Assembly (NCBI GenBank): GCA_034231615.1
Contig: CM067306.1
Coordinates: 32,853,363-32,917,362 of the forward strand
DNA length: 64,000 bases
Reading direction: 5' to 3'
DNA from: Meghimatium bilineatum
Taxonomy: Eukaryota > Mollusca > Gastropoda > Stylommatophora > Philomycidae
Positions 9,242-57,213 of this stretch are shown piece after piece (the first letter of the stretch is position 1; every line of letters begins with the position of its first letter). The position numbers were made by a program, and so were the translations under genes. A model generated the notes under the pieces. That model searched no databases. It saw only the letters and a list, made by a program, of their open reading frames with translations, and was not told where the DNA came from.

Positions 9242-10400
9242 ATTCTTCTTCTTCTTTCGTTCACTTGAAACATGTCTATATCTGTAATTCTGTCTCCTTA
9301 ATAAAACTCACTGTCTTTTGTAGTTCATACAGTGTCCCATAGAGCTTTGATTCCAGTGTTGTTTCCTCTGGCCAATATGTCTGCCTCAGCGTTTCATGCT
9401 CAGAACACTCTTGAAGTATATGTTTGGCACTCTGTGCTGCCTGTCCACATGTACACATGGCCATGTTGCCAATCTTGAACTTTGTATACATGTGACTGCG
9501 GAGTCGGTTGTGTCCTGTTCTGAGGCGTAGAATTATAACTTGTTCTGATCTGTTCATAATGTGATAGTCATCTTGTGTTGGCGTTTGTGGCTTTCTTATT
9601 GACTTGATCATCTGTTTTTTCTGATGGTAGGTGATTGGTATATCTGGTTGGTCTTCGGCAGCACCTTCCTTAGCCAGTTGGTCTGCTTTTTCATTTCCTG
9701 GTATTCCACAGTGAGAGGGTATCCACTGCATGGTTACCCTATACTGGTAAGACAATTCGCTAAGTAATTTTTTCAAGTCTGTTAGTTTTCCAGACTGGAG
9801 AGCTTGAAGTACTGACCTTACATCTGTCAGGAATACCACAGGCTGTGGGCCAGAGATGGAGTTCAGCAGTTTTTTTAGCTGCCACACTAATTGCCTGGAT
9901 TTCTGCATCATAATTATTGCAGAATTTTCCATCGGTGTTCTGATTGTATCTCTAGGCTTGTGTGGATATTCTATATATACACCTGCACCTCCATTCCTCA
10001 CAGCATTCTGTGCTGATCCATCTGTGTACACTCTGACCCATATATCTTGTGGATATTCCTCATCCAGGAAACTGAGGGTGACTGTCCTTCGCTGCACACT
10101 GTTCTGTTCGTCTTCGCTTAGTATTCCTTTCACATGGGTCTGAATGTATATTGGCATTCCATGGCTTTCACTCCATGGGGTTGGTTCTGGTACAGACCTT
10201 AAGGGGCTGTCAACTTCAGGTAGGTCTGTAAGTTGTCTACGGGGTCGTTTAGCTTGATGGATAAAGCTGCTCCTTTTCAGTCGTCCCATTGCTAGATTTT
10301 CGAATCTTTCCTTCATTGGATGACTTGGCATACACTGGAACTTTTCTGCTTGAATTAGTACTTTTGTGTCTCTGCGTTTGCCAATGTTACATGATAATTG
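9242..10400 (-). mobile_element. LINE 3' end with RNase H domain, (GAA)n tail
   Basis: The reading frame 10331-9276 (351 codons) covers a linker, then RNase HI: VRVYTDGSAQNAV (catalytic Asp), FLTDVRSVLQAL (Asp), WIPSHCGIPGNEKADQLAKE (His/Asp). A C-terminal CTCGQAAQSAKHILQEC zinc-knuckle-like segment and a conserved tail ending in TELQI follow. The element ends at 9242 with (TTC)n on the plus strand, i.e. (GAA)n in its own sense. The segment around 9860-9930 is read out of frame: the catalytic-Glu block NYDAEIQAI lies in the next frame, so two indels compensate and the enzyme is dead. A near-identical truncated copy is at 27963-28370. Confidence 0.88.
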
Positions 10401-10515
10401 ATAAAATCTTTGACTTTAACGAGTTAGTTTGTACTTAGTAACAAGTGTCTAGATCTTCTGTTGTTGAATATATGCAATACCATGTATCAGAGACCAACCT
10501 TTCTACAGATCTCAC

Positions 10516-18399: not shown

Positions 18400-18806
18400 A
18401 ACGGTCACTCGCTCACTTTCGTGTATATCTTTTTTTCCCGGAGAAAGTTTATGATCTTTTTTCCCCAGAAATACTCTTCGTCTTAATTCTGGTTCGAAGT
18501 TTAACATGTTTAGTAAGAAGGCAAATATGCGTTGATTGATAAACATTGCTGTATTTGAAAACTTATCAAGACTCCCATACAGTTTAGCATATCTACACAG
18601 CAATTTCGGGTTCCTTGATAAATGTTGTTGCCTTTGGAAGCTCCTCAAGGGTCCATACAGTTTAACTTGTCTTCACGATAAGTTCGATTTTCTTGATAAA
18701 TGTTGCTGTATTTGAAAGCTCCTATACACCTTTCTGTGGATATTCGTCTCTGTGGGCCAGTGTTAGTGTAATGCAGTCTTGCAGGATATGTTCCGAGATC
18801 AATACG
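18400..18806 (-). mobile_element. LINE 3' end with triplicated C-terminal unit
   Basis: Minus strand: from about 18806 the CATATCCTGCAAGACTGCAT (ILQDCI-type) region runs into MYGSLDKFSNTAMFI-like sequence. The last ~80 bp (AGTTTAACATGT...TTTGATAAATGTTGCTGTAT...CTCAAGG) occurs three times between 18500 and 18730. The same unit is amplified seven-fold at 54119-54668. Confidence 0.7.
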
Positions 18807-19130: not shown

Positions 19131-19620
<490 letters not shown>

Positions 19621-46799: not shown

Positions 46800-47535
46800 A
46801 TATAACACAGCAAGTCATCTTCTTCTCAATCACAGTTTAACATCTCTACACAGCAATTCCAGTTTTCTGAATGCTGCTGTATTTGAAATTTCCTCATTGC
46901 TCCCATACATCTTTCTGTGGATATCTGTCTTTGTGGGCCAGTGATTCTTCCTTAGCTGATTTAATGTAATGCAGTCTTGCAGAACATGTTCTGCTGTCTG
47001 TGTTGCATGCCCACATGGACACAGAGTTAATGGAACCAGTCTTAGTCTATTTACATGGCTGTTTAGTCTGTTGTGTCCTGTCCTGATGTGGAAGATGATA
47101 ACTTGCTCAGCTTTGTCAAGATAGTTGTCTTTTGGGTGGTTGACTTTCCTAATAGCTTTGATGGAGGTCCTCTTTTCCTGGTAGGTGATTTCTTGGTATT
47201 TTTGTTCTTGTATTACTTCATTTTTTGCCAGCTTATCTGCTTCTTCATCTCCTGGTATTCCACAGTGGGATGGTATACACTGTAGTACTACCCTTCTTTG
47301 GATGCTCACTTCTTGTACAGCTTCCTTCAGGTCTGGCAGTTTATCACTGTCAAGGGCTTGTAGGACAGACATTGCATCAATAAGAAACACCACATTTTGA
47401 CATTGGCGTGTTGTGTTTTTAATTATTTTTGCAACAATGCTTAGGGCCTGTACTTCTACAGAGTACTTGGAGCAGATGACTCCGGTTGATGAGCATATGG
47501 ATTCATGTTTTTTTTCTGGATATTTTATGTGCACT
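46800..47535 (-). mobile_element. LINE RNase H domain and 3' end
   Basis: An open frame of 234 codons, 47534-46830: VVHIKYPEKKHESICSS, then CSKYSVEVQAL (catalytic Glu), FLIDAMSVLQALDSDKL (Asp), CIPSHCGIPGDEEADKLAKN (His/Asp), HIRTGHNRLNSHVNRL, LCPCGHATQTAEHVLQDC, ending LELLCRDVKL. It ends with GTGATTGAGAAGAAGATG, a short GAA tail. Upstream (higher coordinates) the RNase H start is replaced by a 44-bp tandem array grown from its own coding sequence. Truncated; the first catalytic Asp block is missing. Confidence 0.88.
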
Positions 47536-47915
47536 ACAGAACCTCAGTTGTTCATTGCTCTGGATATTTTATGTGCACTACAGCACCTCAGTTGTTCACT
47601 GCTCTGGATATTGTATGTACACTACAGCACCTCAGTTGTTCACTGCTCTGGATATTTTATGTACACTACAGCACCTCAGTTGTTCACTGCTCTGGATATT
47701 TTATGTACACTACAGCACCTCAGTTGTTCACTGCTCTGGATATTTTATGTACACTACAGCACCTCAGTTGTTCACTGCTCTGGATATTTTATGTGCACTA
47801 CAGCACCTCAGTTGTTCATTGCTCTGGATATTTTATGTACACTACAGCACCTCAGTTGTTCACTGCTCTGGATATTGTATGTACACTACAGCACCTCAGT
47901 TGTTCACTGCAACTG
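47505..47915. repeat. 44-bp array derived from LINE RNase H coding sequence
   Basis: Nine copies of CTCTGGATATTTTATGTACA plus CTACAGCACCTCAGTTGTTCACTG at exact 44-bp spacing (TGGAT at 47561, 47605 and so on). In minus sense a unit reads ...GGTGCTGTAGTGTACATAAA ATATCCAGAG, i.e. the G-A-V-V-x-I-K-Y-P-E stretch that begins the adjoining RNase H frame. 44 is not a multiple of 3, so frames rotate and three staggered open frames show the same peptide every 132 bp. Confidence 0.93.
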
Positions 47916-48133: not shown

Positions 48134-48229
48134 CTTTCTTAGATGGTCCAGATTTTTCTGTTGACTCACCAAATAAATCATCACCTTCTTCATGATTGTC
48201 AAACAATCCTGTTTTTGTGGCATCATTAA
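48134..48229 (-). CDS. WASHC2: WASHC2 LFa exon
   Basis: A 96 bp exon. The acceptor is TTTGTTTTGTAG and the donor is AAAG|GTAATA; phase 1 at both ends. It encodes (V)NDATKTGLFDNHEEGDDLFG, then ESTEKSGPSKKG. GLFDNHEEGDDLFGE is a canonical LFa motif with a short acidic spacer. The minisatellite 48240-48480 starts 10 bp upstream of the exon, within the polypyrimidine/branch region. Confidence 0.92.
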
Positions 48230-48239
48230 CTACAAAACA

Positions 48240-48480
48240 AAGAAATCATTATGATAGGACGTATTATATACAACAGAAATAATTGTGATAGAAGATATGA
48301 TATATGACAGAAATCATTGTGATAGGAAGTATGAGATATGACAGAAATCATTGTGATAAGAGGTTTGAGATGTGACAAATCATTGTGATAGGAATTATAA
48401 TATATGACAGAAATCATTGTGATAGGAAGTATGATATATGACAGAAATCATTTTGATAAGAAATAAAAATACGACATGAG
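48240..48480. repeat. ~34-bp minisatellite next to an acceptor
   Basis: About seven copies of GATATATGACAGAAATCATT plus GTGATAGGAAGTAT. It lies immediately upstream (minus sense) of exon 48134-48229 and so occupies its branch-point region. Confidence 0.9.
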
Positions 48481-52405: not shown

Positions 52406-52526
52406 CTTTATTCTTATCGTCTGTGATCTCATCTTCCTTATCTTCAAAAACGGCCTCCTCTTTCTGACCAGATTTCTTCCTATGTGTTTTAGCTGATGGT
52501 TGATCTACATCACCAAACAAGTCTCC
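52406..52526 (-). CDS. WASHC2: WASHC2 exon starting GDLFGD
   Basis: A 121 bp exon. The acceptor is ATTATTTGTTTCAG before GGA GAC TTG TTT and the donor is AAAG|GTAATC. It enters in phase 0 and leaves in phase 1. It encodes GDLFGDVDQPSAKTHRKKSG, then QKEEAVFEDKEDEITDDKNK. DLFGD is an LF anchor; VFEDKEDE resembles a degenerate partner. Oddity: the acceptor plus the first 13 exon bases are repeated four more times upstream at 69-76 bp spacing (52527-52870). Those upstream copies shift frame (+1) if used. Confidence 0.9.
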
Positions 52527-52870
52527 CTGAAACAAATAATATTGTCTTACATGGGAATATAAGATTGAGATCTCCACTACACATACACACAAACAAGTCT
52601 CCCTGAAACAAATAATGTCATACATGGAAATATAAGAGTGACATCCCACCTCTACACATACACACAAACAAGTCTCCCTGAAACAAATAATGTCATACAT
52701 GGAAATATAAGAGTGACATCCCACCTCTACATATACACACAAACAAGTCTCCCTGAAACAAATAATATTGTCTTACATGGGAATATAAGAGCAACATTCT
52801 CCCTCACACAAACAAGTCTCCCTGAACCAAATAATATTGTCTTACATGTTGATCTAAGAGTGAGATCTCC
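52527..52870 (-). repeat. WASHC2: ~75-bp array duplicating the exon's 3' splice site
   Basis: Exon-boundary words (AACAAGTCTCC|CTGAAACAAATAAT on the plus strand) occur at 52526 (true exon) and at 52602, 52677, 52752 and 52821. On the minus strand each reads ATTATTTGTTTCAG|GGAGACTTGTTTG, with CAG conserved in all five; the farthest has GGTTCAG. Each copy is followed by GTGTGTATGTGTAG, which offers a GT donor after GGA GAC TTG TTT. The amplified unit thus spans intron and the first 13 nt of exon. Confidence 0.93.
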
Positions 52871-54118: not shown

Positions 54119-54668
54119 GCAGTTTAACATATCTACACAGCAAGTTCAGCTTTTTTGATAAATTCTGCTGTATTTGTAAGCTTCTCAAGGCTCCCATTCA
54201 GTTTAACATGTCTACACAGCAAGTTCAGCTTTTTTGATAAATACTGCTGTATTTGTAAGCTTCTCAAGGCTCCCATTCAGTTTAACATGTCTACACAGCA
54301 AGTTCAGCTTTTTTGATAAATTCTGCTGTATTTGTAAGCTTCTCAAGGCTCCCATTCAGTTTAACATGTCTACACAGCATCTAGTTTTCTTGATAATCGC
54401 TGCTGTATTTGTAAGCTTCTCAAGGCTCCCATTCAGTTTAACATGTCTACACAGCATCTAGTTTTCTTGATAATCGCTGCTGTATTTGTAAGCTTCTCAA
54501 GGCTCCCATTCAGTTTAACATGTCTACACAGCATCTAGTTTTCTTGATAATCGCTGCTGTATTTGTAAGCTTCTCACGGCTCCCATTCAGTTTAACATGT
54601 CTACACAGCATCTGGTTTTCTTGATAATCGCTGCTGTATTTGAAAGCTCCTTAATGCTCTCACATATT
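54119..54668. repeat. 77/79-bp array derived from a LINE 3' end
   Basis: AGTTTAACATGTCTACACAG starts at 54121, 54200, 54279, 54358, 54435, 54512 and 54589. The first three units are 79 bp, the next three 77 bp (AGTTCAGCTTTTTTGATAAA vs ATCTAGTTTTCTTGATAATC), so two subtypes amplified in succession. The unit matches the last ~80 bp of the RNase H LINE coding end (46838-46910) and the triplicated 18500-18730 segment. Confidence 0.92.
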
Positions 54669-54804
54669 TTAACATGTTTCTACCAACCTCATCATATGCA
54701 CACAAAGAGCACATCTCTGTACCAACTTCATCATATGCACACAAAGAGCACATCTCTGTACCAACCTTATCACATGCACACAATGAACACATCTCTCTAC
54801 CAAC
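54669..54804 (-). repeat. WASHC2: 39-40-bp array duplicating the exon's 5' splice site
   Basis: The boundary words TACCAAC|CTCATCAT (plus strand) occur at 54805 (true donor), 54766, 54727 and 54687. On the minus strand these are GATGAG|GTTGGT, GATAAG|GTTGGT, GATGAA|GTTGGT and GATGAG|GTTGGT. The intervening sequence is open and encodes VGREMCSLCACDK, VGTEMCSLCAYDE and VGTEMCSLCAYDE. Use of the second or third donor adds 39 or 78 nt in frame; the fourth (118 nt) shifts frame. Confidence 0.93.
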
Positions 54805-54917
54805 CTCATCATCATTATCATCATCATCAAAGATTCCTTTGCTGCCAGAAAACAAGCCTCCAGACGTGCCAAAGAGGGCATCCTCATCTGTTCTCTCACT
54901 CTCCCCAAACAAATCAC
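54805..54917 (-). CDS. WASHC2: WASHC2 exon, DLFGE / GGLFSGSKGIFDDDD
   Basis: A 113 bp exon. The acceptor is TTTTTTCAATAATAG and the donor is GATGAG|GTTGGT. It enters in phase 1 and leaves in phase 0. It encodes (G)DLFGESERTDEDALFGTS, then GGLFSGSKGIFDDDDNDDE. The block T-D-E-D-x-x-(L/P)-F-G-x-x-G-G-L-F-S-G-x-K-G-(L/I)-F-D-D is almost identical to a segment of vertebrate FAM21, the strongest single identification in the window. The donor is a weak GTTGGT and is repeated three more times downstream, so 5' splice-site choice may vary. Confidence 0.95.
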
Positions 54918-55114
54918 CTATTATTGAAAAAAGAACATCATTCATTCTTAACATTTATTTAATGCCTTTTTGTAAGCTCATTTAACTAAATTACATCAAT
55001 CTTCTTACACTCACTTACCCCTTACTTCATATGTACTCTGACCCCAAACTTTCTATAACTTACAGCCTCCTAAATTCTCACATGATCCCTCCTGCTTCCA
55101 GTATTATTACAAAC

Positions 55115-57099: not shown

Positions 57100-57213
57100 C
57101 TTCTTCATCAATCCTAGAGTGTTTGCCTTTTCCCTTTCCTTTATCTATCTTTTCTCCAGCATGTTCTTTATCATGCTTCTTCCTTGTACTGTCTTTGTGA
57201 TGTTTTTCCTTAG
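57100..57213 (-). CDS. WASHC2: WASHC2 basic linker exon
   Basis: A 114 bp exon. The acceptor is TTTTTTTGTCCCCAG and the donor is GAAG|GTTTGT; phase 1 at both ends. It encodes (T)KEKHHKDSTRKKHDKEHAGE, then KIDKGKGKGKHSRIDEEG. Lys/His-rich, ending in an acidic turn, and placed as the K-E-K-K-E-R-R...D-D-E-E linker preceding the first LF modules in vertebrate FAM21. Low complexity, so identity rests on phase fit, position and strong acceptor. Confidence 0.82.

Follow-up and report, generated by a model that had tools for sequence, protein, structure and literature searches.

Does a coding exon that ends in four in-frame copies of its own 5' splice site serve as a length-variable protein switch, or is it a tolerated by-product of a genome rich in minisatellites? 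This question is raised by a locus in Meghimatium bilineatum, for which the window (the whole stretch of DNA analysed, 64,000 nt; contig CM067306.1, positions 32853363-32917362) was examined together with searches of the 1.61 Gb genome (32 contigs). An earlier note on the window had proposed that the repeated donor of a WASHC2 exon could act as a splice and protein switch in an endosomal scaffold. The exons and arrays concerned are listed in Table 1, where, as in the text, a slash marks a splice junction.

The host gene looks like WASHC2/FAM21. A model of 27 predicted exons on the minus strand, extending over about 123 kb (window coordinates 81905 to -41160), was assembled from tblastn with a provisional human WASHC2 sequence, open frames, and splice-site scores from a PWM. 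With this query, nine minus-strand rows have E <=0.003 and many further rows are weak; the nine sit in the N-terminal exons, E10, and the C-terminal parts, and their order along the gene agrees with WASHC2. One N-terminal exon gives E = 1e-13, and the E value of E10 bears out the identity that the earlier note had assigned to the exon with the repeated donor (Table 1). The seeds for E8, E9, and E15 were taken from open frames and not from tblastn rows. E1-E15 join in one stop-free frame of 578 residues, and nine further exons join likewise; the three joins that follow E15, E24, and E25 were left open. To fit the phase, sites 67240 and 2022 were chosen although 67260 and 2033 score better or equally. 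Stretches of LF and acidic residues, read by eye, are repeated in the joined exons, and the gene thus has the many LF-acidic-LF motifs in the tail that are a trait of WASHC2/FAM21. No Pfam model scored above its cut-off for the WASHC2-like exons, two joined blocks, or the array peptide, and the joined E10-E11 had no PDB match at E up to 10; the name WASHC2 therefore rests on tblastn with this query. The model has three to four exons of the GAVSVF/GAVSMFGG type (E12, E20, E22, and E24; window coordinates 50025 to -23332), which suggests exon duplication.

Table 1. Exons, candidate donor, and minisatellites at the repeated splice junctions (window coordinates)
Feature	Position	Strand	Evidence
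E9, predicted exon, …HSRIDEEG, donor AAG/GTTTGT, phase 1	57100..57213	-	Open frame, splice scores, phase agrees with E10
E10, predicted exon, GDLFGESERTDEDALFGTSGGLFSGSKGIFDDDDNDDE, ends at donor 1 (54805)	54805..54917	-	tblastn E 2.3e-6, splice sites, phase
39-bp minisatellite, exon end and GTTGGT donor four times	54681..54812	-	TRF, boundary matches
Fifth in-phase donor candidate, TAT/GTGAGA, takes in the whole array	54664	-	In phase, PWM score similar to donor 1
77-bp minisatellite, 7.2 copies, intronic, directly downstream of the 39-bp array	54120..54677	-	TRF
About 75-bp minisatellite, acceptor TTTGTTTCAG/GGAGACTTGTTTG five times	52507..52867	-	TRF, sequence matches, frame
E11, predicted exon, GDLFGDVDQPSAK…, phase 0 in, open only from acceptor 52526	52406..52526	-	Splice sites, frame

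E10 takes phase 1 from E9 and passes phase 0 to E11. We take the corresponding stretch of human WASHC2 to be LFSGGKGLFDDEDEESDLF, with no insert at the position of the array (the E10 part was matched by tblastn and the E11 part by eye), and donor 1 is therefore taken as the probable ancestral donor.

The boundary GATGAG/GTTGGTA is copied four times on the minus strand. TRF reports an array of period 39 with 3.4 copies and 90% matches, and its span covers donor 54805; a minisatellite does lie across the exon-intron boundary, as had been proposed. The last exon bases of copies 1 to 4 are 54805, 54766, 54727, and 54688. The first three agree with the earlier note, which had placed the fourth at 54687 and the copies 39-40 bp apart; the fourth is one base further, and each step is exactly 39. 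The note had also held that each copy keeps the last exon codons and the donor. GTTGGT is indeed present in all four, preceded by GAG, AAG, GAA, and GAG, respectively, but copy 3 has lost its -1 G. The array is open in the frame of the exon, where it translates as VGREMCSLCACDK, VGTEMCSLCAYDE, and VGTEMCSLCAYDE, and this frame stays open to 54604. Quadruplication of the donor in frame, at 13 residues per unit, is thus upheld: use of copies 1 to 4 would add 0, 13, 26, or 39 residues, and since the unit length is a multiple of three and the E11 acceptor is in phase 0, the longer forms would keep the frame. The units of the neighbouring 77-bp array and those of a 78-bp array at 18536-18723 are alike by eye and are perhaps parts of one dispersed element.

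All the evidence for the copies comes from one assembly of one individual, and they could in principle be a product of mis-assembly. However, they have diverged from each other (33, 34, and 38 of 39 bases identical between pairs), and like arrays are found at many places in the genome, so that an artefact is very improbable. The sequence GATGARGTTGGTA, with at most one mismatch, matches four times in the window, each time in the donor array (100 shuffles: mean 0.24, maximum 2). A search of the 1.6 Gb genome with 54640-54960, which ignores very common words, returned the locus itself and one 47-base match (86%) to the GAT-rich exon end. Apparently, tandem duplication carried a growing 39-bp minisatellite over the 3' border of E10, leaving the four in-frame donor copies that are observed.

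Which of these donors the transcripts use is here inferred from the sequence and from human reporters. U1 snRNA pairing of copies 1 to 4 is -8.2, -7.9, -4.1, and -8.2 kcal/mol, and that of 54664 is -4.4; the corresponding PWM scores are 1.48, 2.28, -1.67, 1.48, and 1.62. Copy 3 is a poor donor by both measures. Among the 23 GT dinucleotides from 54854 to 54607, only copies 1, 2, and 4 and 54664 have PWM scores above 1, and all four are in phase 0. The gene's 25 other predicted donors span -4.3 to -12.3 kcal/mol; donor 1 beats 16 of them in pairing and is the sixth lowest of the 26 by PWM. GTTGGT is also the predicted donor of E16, at 10499. RNA folding gave a mean unpaired value of 0.38-0.40 at all five sites, and does not discriminate between them.

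In human reporter libraries (PMC6783452), the first of two tandem donors is mostly used when both are set to consensus. In both cases donors in line compete, and the natural contexts in that study have them 2-77 nt apart, whereas the competitors at the WASHC2-like exon are three to four tandem copies made by a minisatellite. Because the first of equal tandem donors is favoured there, 54805 is most likely the main donor. Most junctions would be expected at donor 1, copy 2 would be the likeliest minor site, and low-level use of copies 2 and 4, perhaps also of 54664, would lengthen the protein by 13, 39, or 47 residues. Alternatively, 54688 or 54664 could be the main donor, and the exon would then be constitutively longer and the protein would carry a Cys-rich insert of 39 or 47 residues. 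Such an exon has an open frame available, 54688 equals donor 1 in sequence and U1 energy, and 54664 is similar to it by PWM. Yet the first-donor preference runs against this alternative, as do the insert-free human protein noted above and the break that an insert would make in a predicted binding motif, and a constitutive insert is quite unlikely.

This motif lies at the E10-E11 junction itself, which interrupts IF-DDDDNDDEGD-LF, where eight of the ten residues between IF and LF are acidic. The LFa motif is given as L-F-[D/E]3-10-L-F (PMC7093645), and the 21 LFa motifs of FAM21 differ in their affinity for VPS35/VPS29 (PMC4110399). Like such a motif, E10 and E11 together encode an acidic-rich spacer between two residue pairs; unlike it, they have I in first place and N and G in the spacer, and the exact pattern is not matched at the junction, which is LFa-like only. 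An insert of 13, 26, 39, or 47 residues would separate the two halves, with donor 2 stretching the spacer to 23 residues, and the longer forms would presumably weaken one of many LFa-type binding motifs.

The position of the junction within the LFa-like motif, the common phase and open frame of the four copies and 54664, and the comparable strength of copies 1, 2, and 4 are consistent with a selected switch, in which donors 1-4 would be used in regulated proportions and the 13-residue Cys modules would tune or silence the split motif. However, open 39-bp frames are common: 48% of random ones in the gene are open, as are 33 of the 63 frames in 21 arrays with periods of 30-48 divisible by 3. An open in-frame array is therefore remarkable only weakly. 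Additionally, units 1 and 3, identical at 34 of 39 bases, differ by three replacement and two silent changes in a hand count, which together with the first-donor preference speaks against a selected module, and six of the seven junction-copying arrays described below, among them the one at the acceptor of the intron after E10, are out of frame. The length-variable switch proposed in the earlier note is thus unlikely.

The acceptor of the intron that follows E10 (54804-52527) is multiplied as well, so that a single intron has its donor four times and its acceptor five times. The E11 acceptor is the last of five copies of the junction (Table 1), of which four are exact and one has one mismatch; their first exon bases are 52821, 52752, 52677, 52602, and 52526, in steps of 69, 75, 75, and 76. 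The reading frame is open from 52526 only, and the other four copies run into stops. A genome search with the acceptor array returned only its own locus. The chance that the two splice sites of the gene lying in arrays are the two ends of one intron is about 0.019, a coincidence noticed after the fact, and this value of about 0.02 leaves room for a common cause.

The multiplication of both ends, together with the low PWM rank of donor 1, would suit a redundancy buffer, in which extra sites are retained because they make a poorly defined intron easier to recognise. Against this, strong donors are multiplied too (two in the survey below, with scores of 7.9 at L068 and 6.1 at L140), donor 1 has the better U1 pairing in 16 of 25 comparisons, and the extra acceptors would give stops if used; a buffer is improbable. 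The arrays also resemble intron gain by tandem genomic duplication, as described in PMC4974935, in that a stretch with splice signals is duplicated in tandem. There, however, the duplicated piece becomes an intron, whereas here the borders of an existing intron are multiplied. As an origin of this intron such gain was rejected, since its ends carry unrelated arrays (39-bp and about 75-bp), each copying one border. The reporters also say less about the acceptor side: acceptors of the same strength showed no order preference in PMC6783452, and the acceptor array is therefore left unexplained by that study. Choice of the last among five near-identical acceptors is not predicted by it, and acceptor arrays are the harder case.

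Around the WASHC2-like gene, 159 arrays (period >=10, score >=50) cover 44,307 of 257,000 bases (17%), and the window holds 50 arrays covering 14,394 bases; the period is divisible by 3 in 62 of 163 non-overlapping arrays. At 20.1% of 1500 random gene positions a 24-mer recurs at >=18/24 within 600 nt, which is the level shown by the E10 donor itself (18/24), and similar sequence close by is common in this gene. Splice sites inside arrays are few, at 2 of 52 predicted sites against 11.4 expected from random gene positions (lower tail 3.3e-4). An enrichment of arrays at splice sites was accordingly rejected; splice junctions are spared by arrays, not targeted. Within 0, 20, 50, 100, and 200 nt of an array lie 2, 4, 10, 18, and 29 of the 52 sites, against expected counts of 11.4, 12.8, 14.8, 18.0, and 22.9, with an upward lean only at 200 nt (P 0.06). 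The proximity and 24-mer counts used 67260 and 2033, and the proximity count also 52527 for 52526, which leaves the two in-array sites unaffected. Other repeats of the window include a perfect (TA)58 tract at 19133-19248 and a 34-bp array at 48229-48462 (minus strand), which ends 12 nt short of the predicted E13 acceptor and enters its polypyrimidine stretch. Two retroelement-like open frames on the minus strand match RNase H, one above the Pfam cut-off (9276-10415) and one below it (46830-47543).

Exons of two other gene families were surveyed elsewhere in the genome. There were 105 matches to PF08393 (dynein) and 67 to PF00063 (myosin head); 80 and 40 of these, respectively, were retrieved with 250-nt flanks. 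With the exception of L103 and L104, matches containing stops were passed over. As the splice site we took whichever GT or AG scored best close to the edge of each profile match, although match edge and splice site may differ, and in some cases two matches may come from a single exon (L028 and L050 are in equal-length open frames 620 nt apart). A site was flagged if >=16 of 20 bases recurred within 150 nt and the GT or AG was retained. This rule flagged 9 of 240 sites in the 120 dynein and myosin exons; random flank positions recurred nearby in 80 of 1200 cases, but as no kept GT or AG was demanded of these, the two figures are not like-for-like.

After the sequences had been read, 5 of the 240 sites were counted as having tandem copies of the site itself, all of them out of frame. 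A dynein acceptor in L051 (plus strand, 125-270) recurs as TTCCAG/ATTCTATTTTCT and like sequences four times, in steps of 37, 35, and 37. In L068 (plus strand, 177-600) a single dynein exon has both its donor and its acceptor twice (35 and 44 bp apart, respectively), the acceptor copy covering the intron side and two exon bases. The myosin exon end CTTGTTAGAAAAG/GTAATC of L115 (plus strand, 397-602) occurs five times, in steps of 35, 35, 43, and 43, and this array reaches well into the exon; in L140 a myosin donor occurs twice, 14 bp apart. Under the same rule the WASHC2-like gene has 2 of 52, for a total of 7 of 292 predicted sites, and these data suggest that about 2% of splice sites in the genome may have tandem copies beside them. 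The frame is kept in one of the seven junction-copying arrays, namely the WASHC2 donor array, where about one third would be expected by chance.

Several other loci were set aside. Three were borderline: at L133 a GTAAG-like intron side repeats with period 33, at L119 the acceptor-like copies are degenerate, and at L100 there is a 21-bp pair with AG/GTAT; a laxer rule that includes them gives 8 of 240. The array of L102 begins at the donor without copying it, that of L120 lies just after the donor, and at L139 an AG-bearing array stands upstream of the true acceptor, which is itself not copied. The donor flag of L090 (16/20, one copy) was likewise not counted, its sequence having been read on the acceptor side only. 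In reverse-complement coordinates, the 33-bp array of L133 extends from the myosin donor (430-683) and repeats the GTAAG-like core about eight times, and the 35-bp array of L139 (about 105-210), made of acceptor-like TATTCCAG/ATATTAC copies, ends about 40 nt upstream of the myosin acceptor.

In L051, L068 (donor), and L115 it is the exon-side copy that we take to continue the conserved motor protein. Therefore, the remaining copies resemble decoys ignored by the cell, and this would be the simplest reading for the WASHC2-like exon too.

A precedent exists for the donor side. Turri, Cuin and Porter reportedly described in 1995 a minisatellite that provides multiple splice donors in an interferon-induced transcript, which we take to be that of human IFI6, with a 12-bp unit. 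In that case the 5' splice site is reportedly repeated by a minisatellite at the end of an exon, and choosing another donor adds whole units to the protein; the WASHC2 array likewise has a unit that contains the 5' splice site at an exon end. It differs in gene and in unit size (39 bp and 13 residues, against 12 bp in IFI6), and in that the acceptor of its intron is repeated as well. Additionally, use of the extra donors is reported to have been shown for IFI6, whereas the WASHC2 copies are candidate donors read from sequence. The donor array, formed where a minisatellite has expanded over a splice junction, is thus a variant on a type already described. The open-licence literature, covered mostly as titles and the first parts of abstracts and with subscription papers mostly outside its scope, yielded no genome-wide account of junction-copying arrays.

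Overall, we consider it reasonably probable that the array is a tolerated by-product of a minisatellite-rich genome, with donor 1 mainly used, and not a selected switch, with the counterpoint that the PWM gives copy 2 a slightly higher score than copy 1. It would then exemplify something that recurs in this genome, where arrays engulf a donor or an acceptor, in frame or not. We propose that such arrays may be tolerated because splicing still selects the copy on the exon side. More tentatively, and short of an even chance, junction-multiplying minisatellites may form a genome-wide class that affects donors and acceptors and even both borders of a single intron (WASHC2) or a single exon (L068), with the spliceosome reliably picking the exon-side copy among near-identical sites.

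The interest of the donor array is more as a member of a genomic class than as a protein switch. For the WASHC2-like gene, donor choice would decide whether one LFa-like predicted binding motif stays intact. A donor-multiplying minisatellite is on record for one human gene, to which this locus adds an intron with both ends multiplied. If the class is real, then the genome is a ready collection of loci at which identical splice sites compete, the in-frame WASHC2 array among them, and it would steadily supply new exon ends. If RNA confirms this, such arrays would offer natural tests of choice among identical splice sites, acceptors included, and repeat growth would be a route that feeds alternative exon ends.
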